From assembly GCF_000189635.1 (NCBI RefSeq), contig NW_002476539.1, positions 66,236-130,235 of the forward strand: 64,000 nt of DNA, read 5' to 3'. The position numbers were made by a program, and so were the translations under genes. Below, piece after piece: positions 25,948-32,638 of the stretch. Source of the DNA: Tetrahymena thermophila SB210. Its lineage: Eukaryota > Ciliophora > Oligohymenophorea > Hymenostomatida > Tetrahymenidae. Numbering within the stretch: the stretch's first letter is position 1; every line of letters starts with the position of its first letter. The notes under the pieces were generated by a model that saw only the letters and a list, made by a program, of their open reading frames with translations, was not told the DNA's origin and did not search any database.

Positions 25948-26958
25948 TCAGAGTATTTCATAAAGTTCTTTGCTTGGAGATTATATTTTTTTGACACATT
26001 AGCAGCAACTTCTTAGACGTTTTTTTTCTTCAGGGTTTGTATGAATATCTCCATTATAGAATGCATGGCAACCACAAAATAAGAATAAATGTCCACACTG
26101 TAACACCTCAGCTTTAACTTTTTTAGAGCAAACACCGCAAGTTAGATCATGAAGTTATTTTTATTGTTCCCACTCTTTCTAAGTATATAATTTGAACATT
26201 AAATCGTTTCTCACTGTATATTTTAGTCCTATTATATATTTATTATTAAATGCTTAATAAAATGAATAATTTTCATAAACTAACTACCTTTTAAAACATG
26301 AGATCCTTCATGCCACCATCCTTGCTATCTAAATATAACTATTTTTCCCTCCTCTGATTTACATTTATACTCATTAGATTCCCATCCTTCCCATTCAAAG
26401 CGAGTAAATCCTCCATTATCCACTGTATTCAAATAAAATTAAATTGTCAAAATAGAAAAGATAGATTTCGAAGGACTCCAACATCCATCTTAATGCATAG
26501 CAAACTTTTGATCTTTGCTATACTTTAGTATCCTGAATCTCTCATTCATTCCATGGTATAATGCTCCTTTAATATTAATAATTGTTGAAATATATATTCG
26601 TAAAATCTAATAAAAAGTTACCTTCTTAACATAATGGAACATATGGTCTTAGTTTTTCTGCCAAATACTAGGCAGTTTCAACATCGTCAATCATAACGCG
26701 ATTGCAGTCTCTAAAATCTTTATCAAGAACTCCTAAACCATATCCAACATTAACCAAAGCATCTTAAAAACCTTAGCTTTCTGAGAATTTAATTACTTCT
26801 TAACATTATTTAGTAGATAAAAACTTTTTTACTACCCAAATTTCTCCTTAGACTACTTGTTCTAATTACTTTTTCTTACTTAAATCTTTATCCTCAGATT
26901 TAAATATGTCTATAATGGATTTTTTTTATGCAGTCTAAACTACGCTTTTGCTATACAT
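25948..26958 (-). CDS. Fe(II)/2-oxoglutarate dioxygenase (prolyl-4-hydroxylase-like) with C-terminal zinc-binding domain
   Basis: Three reverse-strand exons (26958-26622, 26566-26288, 26228-25948) separated by 55- and 59-bp GT...AG introns give 298 residues. Residues ~40-220 carry the double-stranded beta-helix dioxygenase signature: iron ligands in MHQDG (His137, Asp139) and a distal His198 in WWHEGSHVLKG, followed by KYTVRNDLMF with Arg212 as the likely 2-oxoglutarate-binding residue. This pattern belongs to the P4H-like family that acts on protein or small substrates using O2 and 2-oxoglutarate. A C-terminal ~60-residue domain has CGVC (236-239), CGH (250-252), CGCH (257-260) and CCQC (280-283), which looks like a RING-type or related zinc-binding domain. 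The fusion suggests recruitment to, or modification of, a protein target; substrate unknown. No signal peptide, so probably cytosolic or nuclear. Confidence 0.88.
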
Positions 26959-29257
26959 TTTATTTATTCTATAATAAATTGATTGGATAATATCTTTTGC
27001 TTTTTTTATAATTTTTTAATATTCAATACATTTAATTTTTGTAGATATAAATTACGAAGATAAAAGTTGTAGGAGAAAGTCTAATGTTTTCTGATACTTA
27101 TATTATTGAATTTTCTACTATTTGAAATATTGTCGCTCATTATTTATTCTACCAAAAAAATAGACAAATCCTTATTCTACATCAAAAAGTTATTTTATTG
27201 ATAAACTCTGATCAAAGATAACAAACTGTACATATTTATAAATTTGTAAGTATAAAATAAATAATTATTTAATTTTAATGAGCAAGATAATGAAAAAAAA
27301 TACTTCTATCATCTTTTTAGCTAATAAAATATTATAATATATTAATTAAATTAAAAAATAGATTATGGTTTTAAGAATGAAATATAGAGGTAATTCTCAA
27401 AATAAATTTGATATTTGTGAACTGCAAAAAATTTTTTAGTTTTGCATAAGTCGTTTTGATAATGTTTGGCTTACTTGAAAAACTAAACATTCATATTTTA
27501 TAGTATTTTAATTATTAATTTAAGTTAAAATTTTACAAAACAAAAAGAAAAAAAATTAAAATAAATCATTAATTATAATTAAAGCTATAATTTTCATTAA
27601 AAATATGAGTTAATCAATGTATTTACCAGATACATTCTATTTTAAGCTTCTGTTAATACAAAATTTCTTATTTTTTCTTCAATATTATTTAATGATTTCA
27701 TAAATATTTCTTAATACTCTCATAAATATTTCTTAGTATATTTATAATATTTCCTAATAATTATAAATTAAAAATAAAAGTTAAAAAAAAGTATGAGTTA
27801 AATTAAAAATAGATGATTTGTATAAAAATAAAGCTTAATAATTAATACTCTAAAAATTTCTTGGTGAAATAAATTTATTAATTTAACAAATAATTTTAAT
27901 TTTTCAAGTATAAAAATTAATTTAAAAACTATAAAGAAGCAACTAAATTTTATAAATTTAATTTTATTTGTCAAAAAACATTATTTTAAGAGACCAGTGT
28001 TTTCTTTGAAAACTAAAAGAAGCTTATAATTTAAAAAAATGTGTTTTTACAAATTTAATTTAAATAATCTAAATTTTTAAATTTAATTTTTAAGGTTTAT
28101 AAAAAGTATATGCCATATTTTTTTTAATTTTTATCAAATAGATGTAATTTTTTTAATAAATCAAATAATATTTATTTATCATATCTTTAATGTTTGTCGT
28201 TTCATTTATAAAATTTTAGTTGAATATATATTTTATAATTCAACAAAATTTAGTAGTTGTTTTATGTATGTTTTTGATAAAAAAATAAAATTTATAAAAA
28301 TCTAATAAATTGAAAAAAATAAATTCATTATTATTTCAATCAAAACTACTAAAAATACCTTTATGTGATAAATTTTTTAACTTTAAATTAAACAACTTTT
28401 AAAAATGATATAATTTAAATTGATTTTTAAAAATAGAATCAAATTTATGTGAATAATTAATTTGGAAAATAGCAAATGATATATAAAATAAAATTATATT
28501 TTTTAAAATATAGAAAAAAAAATATTTTCATGTTCTTTAATAAATTTTAAAAAAATAAATTGGTTAACTTCTGAAATAGTCAAACAACTTTAAAGTAAAT
28601 ATTTTTCACTTTCCATACCAATTCAAAATGCTTCATTATATTATTTTTTTTATAATGTGAATATAAATGAAAAAAATATTGACGATATCAAATAATTAAT
28701 TCAGATTCTAGAAAGTCTTAATAATGATTCAAAGATTTTATTAATATTTTATAGAAAAATATAATATCAAATTTTACTTCCACGGTCGGTATTTTAAAAA
28801 TTGAATAGCTGAGTAAGTGAGAAGTTATTGTTTAACAATTACTAAGATTATTAAATTTGTGGTCATAAAATTTTTAAAAAGGGTTTATAACTAATTAAAA
28901 TAAATTACATACAAAATATCAAAAACACTTAAAAAACAAAATATAGTTAATGATTCATCAAATTTTAATAGTCTTTAGGGCATTTGACCATTTATTTAAA
29001 CTTATTTATGTGATTTTGATTAGATAAATTATAAATTTAATTGTTTTAAATTAAATCTCACAAGAAGTTGATGTCAATAAAATTTTATATGCATAACAAG
29101 ATTCAGAAATATTTAAGTAAAATAGATAATTCTGGAAGGTCTTTTAATAAATTGAGAAACTTCTACTTTGCTTTGACATAAATTTAATGTTATTAGGATA
29201 AGTTTATTTCAGATTGTAAAAAGCTGAGTCACTGTAAATGTAAAAATCAACTAAAAA
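26959..29257. other. intergenic, 2.3 kb
   Basis: Promoter side of the dioxygenase gene and AT-rich spacer. A 68-codon frame at 29071-29277 (start MSIKFYMHNK) is coding-like but overlaps the next small frame; I cannot decide which, if either, is real. Confidence 0.45.
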
Positions 29258-29680
29258 ATGGAAGGATAGGTAGTTGAATAGTTATTTAATACAAAATATT
29301 AACGAATAGAAGAAATTTGGAAAAATGATAGAACAAAGTCTTGGAATGCTTAAATTATCTTACTCATTGAGCTCCAATTTATAATGTATTGCGTAGATGA
29401 CGAATGGAAATAAAATACTTCTATATAATTTCTTATTAAGTAAATATACTATAAACAAAATTTAATTATAAATTTAGAGTTGCAAAAACAATAGCTTGTA
29501 CCAAAATAATACGCAAATGATCCTTAAGCAATTTTTACACTCTTAATAGAAGTTTTGTATAAATAGGATATTCACAAACAAATTAGTTTATTAATTTTAA
29601 TAATTCAATAAGAATTTTAATAATTAAAGTTAAATGGACACTAAAAAGGAAACCAACGTACCAACATAAGTAGATACTGA
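29258..29680 (+). CDS. possible small hypothetical protein, 140 aa, overlapping next gene
   Basis: ATG at 29258 (MEGQVVEQLF) opens 140 codons to a TGA at 29678-29680. The first ~115 residues look like genuine coding (KNDRTKSWNAQIILLIELQ, then VPKQYANDPQAIFTLLIEVL), Lys/Gln-rich and helical. The last part overlaps the first 47 bases of the selenoprotein-like gene at 29634 in another frame, so either the real end is removed by an unseen intron or the frame is fortuitous. No domain recognised. Confidence 0.3.
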
Positions 29681-30474
29681 GTTGGCAGACTACCTGATAT
29701 AAGGGTCTGGTGATAATGGAGTTAAATTCAGGACTCTTTACGAAGCTTAAAGATCCATAGTAGTTTTTATTCGTCACTTCAATTGATACGTCTGCAAAGA
29801 TTTCGTTAAAGTACTTGGCTAGCAAATCAACTTTGAGGAATTTAAGAAATTAGACATAAACTTCAATGTAGTTGGATGCGGCAAGAAGAACGGAATCAAT
29901 TTATTTAGCAAAGACACTAACTTCCCAATCAATCGTCTCTTTGTTGATCCTGATCGTTTTACTTACAACAAGTTAGGCATGATTAGAGCAAACGGATTTT
30001 CAGAATTGAAAGGTGATGGCAAGAAATCTTAAGAAACTTCTTCATCATTAGTCGGAGGAATGTCTTGGTCTTTATGGAAGGCCATTTCAAGAGGAAACTA
30101 AGGTGATGTTTATCAAGTAAATAACAATTTTTAAAAAAAATATTCATTTTTTAGCTTAATAAAAAATTTCAATAGCTCCTTTAAAATGCATAAAATTTTT
30201 TGATAATTAACTTAAGTATTTAGATGAAAATCTATTGAAAATTTTAATATTTTTTGAATAAAAAGTTAATAAGGCAAAATTATTAAACTTTATAAAATAA
30301 ATGAATTATTATTCTAACAAATATTCTTTATTAAATTAGTTGGGAGGTGCTTATGTTTTCGATATTACAGGAAAAATTTTATACAGCTTTGTTGACCATA
30401 GTGCTGAAGGACATATTAGTGTATAATAGATCAATGAATTAGCACAAACTTATGGAAAAAAAGCTTCATAATGA
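29634..30474 (+). CDS. PRXL2/SelU-type thioredoxin-fold protein with in-frame TGA (putative selenocysteine)
   Basis: Two exons, 29634-30116 and 30340-30474, with a 223-bp GT...AG intron, give 205 residues if the TGA at 29784-29786 (codon 51) is translated. The protein matches the AhpC/TSA_2 (PRXL2, FAM213/AAED1) family: a leading strand SIVVFIRHF, the redox site at 51-54 read as U-x-x-C where relatives have CxxC, then FRDF-like helix CKDFVKVLG, LFVDPDRFTYNKLG, and the hallmark C-terminal GDVYQLGGAYVFD followed by GKILYSFVDHSAEGH. The TGA sits exactly at the first active-site Cys, and everything after it is conserved, so termination there is implausible. SelU proteins in other eukaryotes use Sec in this position. 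Role: probable thiol/selenol redox or peroxidase-like enzyme in the cytosol. The stop is TGA 30472-30474, so the same codon has both meanings in this mRNA; a candidate SECIS lies ~100 bases after it. Confidence 0.88.
29784..29786 (+). other. TGA codon 51, putative selenocysteine of a UxxC redox motif
   Basis: Preceded by ...IRHFN and followed by YVCKDF. It replaces the first Cys of the CxxC found in the PRXL2/AAED1 family; the second Cys (residue 54, TGC 29793-29795) is kept. Known families use Sec in the same position. Confidence 0.82.
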
Positions 30475-32638
30475 TAAACTAAAACTAATAAATAATAAAA
30501 TAAATAATATATATAGACTGATAATATGAAAATGAAAGCAAAACTATGACATAGCCAGTAAAAAATAGAATAAATTAAATGAAGAAAGTGTTTTAAATCA
30601 CATTGTGATGAACATTATCTGAATAATTCAACTTTTATCTATTTTTAAAAACTTGTTAAATTTTGCTGTAATTTAATATATCACACTTTACCATATAACT
30701 TAACTAACTTATATTTTTTAATTAAAATGTTAAATATCTTAAAAGATTTCTATTTTTTATGTTAAGAGTTTGTATTTGATTTTAAAATTATTATGACTAA
30801 TATAACCATTTATAAAATTATGAATAATTTAATTTAAATATTTATATAAGAAACTATGAAGAAGGAAAATAAATATTATTTCTTCCAAAAACTTTAAGTT
30901 AGTAATATTTATTTTAATAAATTTATTTTATTTAACTAAAAAAAATAAAATAATCTTAACTCAAAAGAATAAAATTTTAATTACTTTATAACCTCTCAAT
31001 CTAGATCAAGACTCTTTACAAGCTGGCTCTAAATAATTCCCAGATTAATTAATTTTTATAGATTATTACGATAAATTAATTAGGTTAGAATTAATGATGA
31101 TTTACATTAACCAATATTTAGAATGATTTAATCTTTATAATAATGAAAATACCTTATTACGCATTATATGCTTTAAAAAGTGTAATTAAGTAATTGAAAA
31201 TAAAATAGGTTGTGAAATTTAATAATAACAATTGTAAACCTTTATTAACAATTTTCACTAAAATAAAAGGTCATATTCTCAAATTAAAAACAAACATTCA
31301 TTTTAATTTTTAATAAATAAATAAATATTTTCTAAATTCAAAAAATTACTTGAATCTTTTCAAAATCCACTAGCTATAAAAAGCTGATTTTCTCTTAATT
31401 ACAAGCTATTATAACTTTATAGTCTTTTAAAGATATTTTTTTTTGTAATTTTTTTGATTTAGATACTTCTTTATTTATAATTTATTTTTTAATATCCTTT
31501 TTATTTGAATGTTTGAAATAAAATCTCCAAACTGATTCGAGATGACATCATGCTTATTTAAATTTATTAAATAATGCAGCTACAGGCTTATTAAATGTAA
31601 TAGATAGATTACAATAAATATTCAAATTTTATTATAAGCTAAGTACTTACATTATTCAAATTTGCTATTAGTTTTCGATTAATTAAAAGAAAAATCATCC
31701 ATCCGTCATAGTAACAAAGGAAGAATTACTTAATGTAATTTATTATTGCAAAATACATTTTAATATTTGAATTATACCAATTTTTATACTTACTAACACA
31801 AATCGTAAATATTTTAATTCATATTTTCACAAAAACTATTTATAAGATTTAGCAATTAATATATTTTTATTAACTTGTTACAGTATTCTAAATAATTGCT
31901 TGAATATGTTATAGTGTAAACTGTTTTTAATATATGCTTTTGCTTTTCATGATTAAAGTTAAAAATTTATCAAAGATTCATAACTTCCAGTATATAAATA
32001 AATAATAAAAGTTTTCTATTTAGTCATAAAAGAAATCTTTAGAAATAATAGGCTAACTATTTTTTAATATTTAAATAAAAATATCCTATTTTAAAAATTT
32101 GTTACATGTAAAAATACTGTTAGAAAAGTTGTTAAATGTATTGGTTTTAATTCAAAGAAATTCAACTGCTGCTATTAATCCAAATTATTATGGTAAGAAT
32201 TGAATTCAGATTTTTATCTTATTAGTAATATAACCACACAATTCCAATTAAAAATGTAAATTTGATCAACACATCAATAAAATCTAATTTTAAAAAATTT
32301 AAATTGAAAACTAAGTCAAGCAATTGAAGCAGTTAATTTATTTATTTATTGTTGTTATATTTAATAATCTAAGCTTGGTTTTGGTTTGAGTTTTTCTTTC
32401 GAATATTAGTATTTAAAATGTGCTTAAATTTAAAAATTTTTTTAAAGTTTTAGTACTACATTATATTTTGTTTGATAATAAATAATTAAAAATTTTAAAA
32501 TAGCAAACAAGAAAATTTTAGAATTTGATTTGAATTTATATTAAAAAATTTGTAATGTTTTTTTTTTGTAATTTAATAAATTTTCTTTTTAAAGAAAAGC
32601 TAATAATCAAGAATGATAATAAAAAGAGAGTAAATAAT
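30475..32638. other. intergenic, 2.2 kb with undecided short frames
   Basis: Apart from the SECIS candidate I find no firm gene. Raised composition occurs near 30990-31130 (all three plus frames read coding-like; one ends DYYDKLIRLELMMIYINQYLE at about 31120) and near 31550-31900 (two overlapping open frames of ~115 codons). These could be exons of an unplaced gene or remnants. Confidence 0.4.
30568..30629 (+). promoter_or_regulatory. candidate SECIS element in the 3' UTR
   Basis: About 105 bases after the stop codon lies ATGA (30579-30582) and, 23 bases further, TGAT (30606-30609), the two sides of a SECIS quartet. Between them AGAAAGTG (30583-30590) and CACATTG (30599-30605) can pair imperfectly, leaving an apical loop TTTTAAAT that contains the expected A-A(-A) 12 bases after ATGA. 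A lower helix GAAT/ATTC (30568-30571 with 30626-30629) closes it. Pairing is imperfect and AT-rich, so this is a candidate only. Confidence 0.5.

Follow-up and report, generated by a model that had tools for sequence, protein, structure and literature searches.

A putative selenocysteine-containing SelU/PRXL2-type protein in Tetrahymena thermophila, a ciliate with UGA as its sole stop codon

We analyzed a stretch of 64,000 nucleotides of Tetrahymena thermophila SB210 (contig NW_002476539.1, positions 66,236 to 130,235; hereafter, the window). On its plus strand lies a SelU/PRXL2-type gene that begins with the ATG at 29634 and comprises two exons. Exon 1 (29634–30116, translation and gene model) encodes codons 1–161, and exon 2 (30340–30474, gene model) encodes codons 162–205 followed by the terminal TGA (30472–30474). 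The 223-nt intron between them (30117–30339, GTAAAT...AATTAG) was inferred from sequence, and its removal in the gene model gave a protein of 205 residues, joined as ...GDVYQ|LGGAYVFD...KKASQ. The initial annotation had placed a gene at 29634–30474, and the interval stands, with this one intron inside it. In the Tetrahymena code, UAA and UAG specify Gln and UGA is the sole stop, as given in the available text of PMC7409322; the gene contains nine TAA/TAG codons (seven TAA and two TAG). Direct readout confirmed both the terminal TGA and the in-frame TGA at codon 51 (29784–29786) on which that annotation was built. The latter occupies the first position of a U-x-x-C motif, and the TGC of Cys54 (29793–29795, direct readout), which is invariant across three paralogues, is its proposed resolving cysteine. 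The gene had been expected to be missed or truncated by standard gene callers, which fits the open reading frame listing, in which the frame ends at 29786. An ORF on the minus strand at 26542–27312 neighbors the SelU-type gene, and its sequence presumably resembles the beginning of a 2-oxoglutarate/Fe(II) oxygenase.

When codon 51 was rendered as Cys, the protein matched the AhpC-TSA_2 family (PF13911) at 61.4 bits against a curated cut-off of 27, in agreement with the family first suggested; the score rose from 35.7 to 61.4 bits once exon 2 was added, and the match begins at residue 67, past the redox motif. Among 14 control genomes, PF13911 was matched in five, in two of them over the cut-off. 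In the SelU family, Sec occupies the redox-active Cys site. U51-Y-V-C54 aligned with the Cys-x-x-Cys of PDB entry 9us9, the TGA falling on its first Cys, which is the place the initial annotation had given it. The window protein also has what we take to be a resemblance to C9orf21/PRXL2C (RHFxCxxCK). An AlphaFold2 single-sequence model of exon 1 alone had a mean pLDDT of 34.5 and was too poor to use as a guide to a thioredoxin-like fold.

A protein search of the genome, an assembly of 101 Mb in 445 contigs, at E ≤ 10 returned three genes only, in six exon matches. Besides the window gene, the PF13911 matches in the genome number two, both on the minus strand of contig C174: P2 (646945–646257) and P3 (645233–644558), with 55% and 49% identity, respectively, to the window protein. 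The introns of all three genes lie at the same codon position, after GD(V/I)YQ, and those of the two C174 paralogues measure 80 and 61 nt. P2 carries TGA at the codon 51 column (RHFF-TGA-YVCKDF) and P3 carries TGC (RHFF-TGC-YVCQDF); the flanking RHF and YVC are invariant across the three paralogues, and P3 aligns continuously and without gaps across the site. As expected of a eukaryotic selenoprotein, UGA is found where homologues have Cys (TGC in P3, Cys in 9us9), and neither of the two TGA genes has another in-frame TGA ahead of its terminal one. P2 and P3 are adjacent and mutually closest, being identical at 33 of the 50 residues that precede the site and at 112 of the 151 that follow it. 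On these three sequences, the simplest history would be a Sec-containing ancestor, with a Sec-to-Cys change and loss of the SECIS element in P3. No relatives were confirmed in the prokaryote genomes and viral contigs scanned, and the plasmids scanned gave only two weak matches (E values of 0.3 and 1).

Next, we compared substitution rates on the two sides of the TGA. After the TGA, over 151–153 codons, pN/pS was 0.26/0.69 for the window gene and P2, 0.32/0.83 for the window gene and P3, and 0.14/0.60 for P2 and P3; before it, the corresponding values were 0.28/0.82, 0.28/0.58, and 0.16/0.55. In two of the six, dS had reached saturation. In all three pairs pN was well below pS after the TGA, the coding constraint past UGA that is expected of a eukaryotic selenoprotein, and the reading frame is therefore kept beyond it. 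The values after the TGA were similar to those before, which argues that the full-length protein matters to fitness. This evidence bears on the possibility that the main product is a truncated peptide of 50 residues, with Sec insertion rare or selenium-conditional, which in part overlaps with the Sec reading. UGA is the organism's stop codon and eukaryotic Sec insertion is often inefficient, but the constraint on the 151–153 codons behind the site, resembling that in front of it, makes predominant truncation improbable.

Downstream of the gene, a descriptor together with folding revealed a SECIS-like core on the plus strand at 30579–30623, consisting of AUGA (30579–30582), AAA (30595–30597), an upper helix, and UGAA (30620–30623). 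The hairpin lies 104 nt past the stop, its AAA lies 12 nt after the AUGA, and it folds as.((.(((((((...(((((...)))))))))))).)) with an energy of −7.4 kcal/mol. An AATAAA just upstream (30569–30574), one of many such A/T-rich motifs, weighs somewhat against the mRNA reaching the hairpin. The descriptor was drawn from six published T. thermophila SECIS elements, of which TrxR_00823430 has the same plan as the window hairpin; the AA sits 12 or 13 nt after the AUGA in five of the six and 16 nt after it in SPS2, and since the background scans used a spacing of 11–13, the SPS2 element would be missed. The 93-nt published TrxR SECIS (TTHERM_00047660), as printed in Table 2 in the available part of PMC2612030, was found in the genome with a 100% match.

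The helix score of the window hairpin was 14.5, lower than those of the six published elements (18.5–21). Across both strands of the whole window (128 kb), it was the sole place with a helix score ≥14.5 and an energy ≤−1; by helix score alone, two other places were higher (15.0 each). Among shuffled UTRs, the hairpin was matched in 60 of 5000 and 230 of 20000 by helix score alone, in 6 of 5000 and 37 of 20000 when an energy ≤−3 was added, and in 1 of 20000 with an energy ≤−7.4; these cut-offs were chosen, once the candidate had been seen, to equal its own value, which favors it. The wider 98-nt local fold had a z score of −2.19, with 7 of 200 shuffles folding equally well. With the Rfam SECIS_1 model, the hairpin reached 17.2 bits, short of the gathering score of 35, and at gathering scores Rfam found nothing over the window. 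In the whole genome, just one match to RF00031 was among those listed at E ≤ 10 (23.8 bits, below gathering), with 132 of 1998 first-look candidates scored. We treated Rfam as weak here because the published TrxR SECIS (in locus L016) was absent from its matches listed at E ≤ 10. The 3′ UTR SECIS expected of a eukaryotic selenoprotein is thus indicated by the six-element descriptor, the fold, and the shuffles, the Rfam gathering score not being reached.

P2 is likewise followed by a hairpin, 76 nt past its stop (score 16.5, energy −3.5; matched by 2 of 20000 shuffles), and no hairpin candidate was found in the 430 nt searched after the Cys-coding P3. When 42 loci were scanned at a score ≥14.5 and an energy ≤−3, seven distinct sequences passed, each situated downstream of a TGA-containing gene: the window gene, P2, TrxR, two GPx, a SelW-like gene, and a SelT-like gene. 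These loci amount to 272,994 bases over both strands, overlap in part with each other and with the window, and were not sampled at random. The descriptor had been defined in part from the TrxR and GPx elements, and those of the window gene, P2, and the SelW-like gene had already been seen when the cut-off was chosen; of the seven, the SelT-like hairpin is the one hit that had not been seen by then. A model built from seven hairpins contained no base pairs, and RNAalifold on the same alignment likewise gave none.

The genome also encodes Sec machinery, as expected for a eukaryotic selenoprotein. A tRNA-Sec was found at C396:319831–319916 (68.6 bits; the only one of ten matches over the cut-off of 47), with UCA at the anticodon position as read by eye from the alignment, and SepSecS was found on contig C318 (426.7 bits). 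Among the 14 control genomes, tRNA-Sec was matched in all 14, in five of them over the cut-off, and SepSecS was matched in three. For T. thermophila, the available text of PMC7409322 reports eEFSec, SPS2, and an SBP2-like protein. An alternative is that a near-cognate tRNA for Cys, Trp, or Arg reads through the UGA and no Sec is inserted. UGA is the organism's sole stop and could be read through at some rate here, but two paralogues carry it in the column of the catalytic Cys, the SECIS-like hairpins track the TGA genes, and this machinery is present, all of which makes such read-through very unlikely.

A sequencing error or an inactivating mutation, leaving a Cys-coding gene or a pseudogene, would require only a single base, by which TGA differs from TGT or TGC, and P3 does have TGC at the column. 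Against this, P2, which lies on a different contig, shares the TGA at this column; past that codon, both TGA genes are under purifying selection, and neither has a further in-frame TGA before the terminal one; and SECIS-like hairpins lie behind both of them and are absent behind the TGC gene; we give this explanation slightly less credence still. That the TGA lies within an unrecognized intron and is spliced out is scarcely credible, since P3 runs through the site gapless, the RHF and YVC flanks are invariant in the three paralogues, and the second Cys of the motif aligns with that of 9us9, even though at least one intron occurs in 71% of gene models (PMC2612030, available text).

Collectively, we assign a probability of about 0.93 to the reading that the gene encodes a genuine Sec-containing redox protein of the SelU/PRXL2 family (AhpC-TSA_2), with putative Sec51. 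The Sec reading of the TGA is supported by the TGA and TGC paralogues at the column, by purifying selection after the TGA, by the hairpins that follow both TGA genes but not P3, and by tRNA-Sec and SepSecS; the paralogues and the SECIS-like hairpins are evidence beyond that of the initial annotation. Its proposal that UGA serves as both Sec and stop codon was supported as well, without being new, as such dual use is already printed for Tetrahymena in the available texts of PMC2612030 and PMC7409322. Once the ribosome reaches codon 51 and its UGA, the 3′ UTR hairpin would recruit the SECIS-binding protein and eEFSec with Sec-tRNA(Sec) (anticodon UCA), Sec would be inserted, and translation would continue until, at the terminal UGA, the release factor prevails. 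We infer both the actual insertion of Sec at codon 51 and the escape of the terminal UGA from recoding. In the catalytic cycle envisaged, Sec51 would carry out the nucleophilic attack on a substrate of peroxide or endoperoxide type, Cys54 would resolve the resulting selenenic acid to a selenenylsulfide, and the thioredoxin system would reduce the latter; this choice of substrate and reductant is plausible and somewhat favored.

Six putative T. thermophila selenoproteins (two GPx, three TrxR, and SPS2) are listed in the available text of PMC2612030, according to which others may remain, and that of PMC7409322 counts five only. The two also conflict on GPx, since PMC2612030 gives both a SECIS, and PMC7409322 accepts Sec only in TtGPx12, without a SECIS. 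The SelU-type protein adds to the published list of this organism, as it is not among the six of PMC2612030, in whose available text the word SelU is absent. Searches of the open-access literature for SelU or selenoproteomes of Tetrahymena or of ciliates showed no report of this gene.

Other TGA-containing genes were observed in the same genome (G000). A SelW-like gene on the plus strand of contig C334 (locus L013, 1142–1420 and 1509) reads MNANVIKAFVEYCGG-TGA-GYKP... and matched the Rdx family at 43 bits; its hairpin, with the AUGA 88 nt after the stop, accounts for the one genome match to RF00031 among those listed (23.8 bits). A second gene on the plus strand (C4:362832–363245; locus L024, TGA 1525–1527, stop 1921–1923, hairpin 2009) reads VQYCIG-TGA-SYKG..., and 85 nt past its stop lies a SECIS-like hairpin; we take the gene to be SelT-like from its motif and an Rdx match. 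Stop-to-hairpin spacing was thus 104 nt in the window gene, 76 nt in P2, 88 nt in the SelW-like gene, and 85 nt in the SelT-like gene. Both the SelW-like and the SelT-like genes are outside the six listed in the available text of PMC2612030. Two of 15 GPx matches (C167:245366–245536 and C65:149955–150128) contain TGA, with published SECIS elements nearby downstream, and TGA was found in none of four MsrA and none of three MsrB matches. The Sep15/SelM and SelK families had no genome match at E ≤ 1; the SelK control also matched nowhere, so absence is not implied. At the TrxR C-terminus (L016 1645–1653, contig C122), which reads GC-TGA-GGT-TGA, the Sec UGA (L016:1645) and the stop UGA (L016:1651) start six nt apart, 199 and 193 nt from the SECIS, and the distance to the SECIS alone can therefore hardly decide between them.

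We tentatively suggest, as a possibility short of an even chance, a selenoproteome well above the five or six proteins in print, with at least 10 genes (the six of PMC2612030, two SelU-type, the SelW-like, and the SelT-like), in which UGA would be assigned by more than distance to the SECIS. The Cys member of the tandem SelU pair would then represent a Sec-to-Cys conversion retained next to its Sec counterpart, where it might serve as a backup independent of selenium. In its available text, PMC7409322 (2020) uses the count of five selenoproteins against a link between aquatic life and large selenoproteomes; if confirmed, the new TGA genes would weaken this argument. Tetrahymena is genetically tractable, and its tandem pair of Sec and Cys genes would also make possible a direct test of how one codon serves as both Sec and stop where there is no other stop codon.

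Among known systems, the six published T. thermophila selenoproteins share with the SelU-type protein the organism, the dual use of UGA, and the hairpin plan (AUGA, AA 12–16 nt later, UGA), and differ from it in belonging to other protein families. Prostamide/PGF synthase (9us9 and 9usa) aligned with residues 21–194 of the three-paralogue profile (E values of 9.3e-08 and 7.9e-05), with CxxC in 9us9 and Ser-x-x-Ser in 9usa where the Tetrahymena protein has U51-x-x-C54; it is a distant relative, and nothing seen points to a prostaglandin substrate in the ciliate. The SelL-related redox protein family (NCBIfam NF040769) matched over residues 22–193 with an E value of 2.5e-18; at 66.3 bits against a curated cut-off of 120, the Tetrahymena protein is therefore not a member by that test. 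According to the available texts, SelU occurs as a selenoprotein in Ostreococcus and Thalassiosira (PMC2375036), and all Sec-containing SelU are placed in SelU1 (PMC3316567), in disagreement with the Sec forms of SelU1, SelU2, and SelU3 all reported from invertebrates (PMC3473315). The SelU proteins of algae, fish, birds, and invertebrates are, as here, of the Prx-like2 type with Sec forms (PMC2375036 and PMC3473315, available texts), whereas the host of the Tetrahymena SelU-type protein is a ciliate in which UGA is the sole stop.
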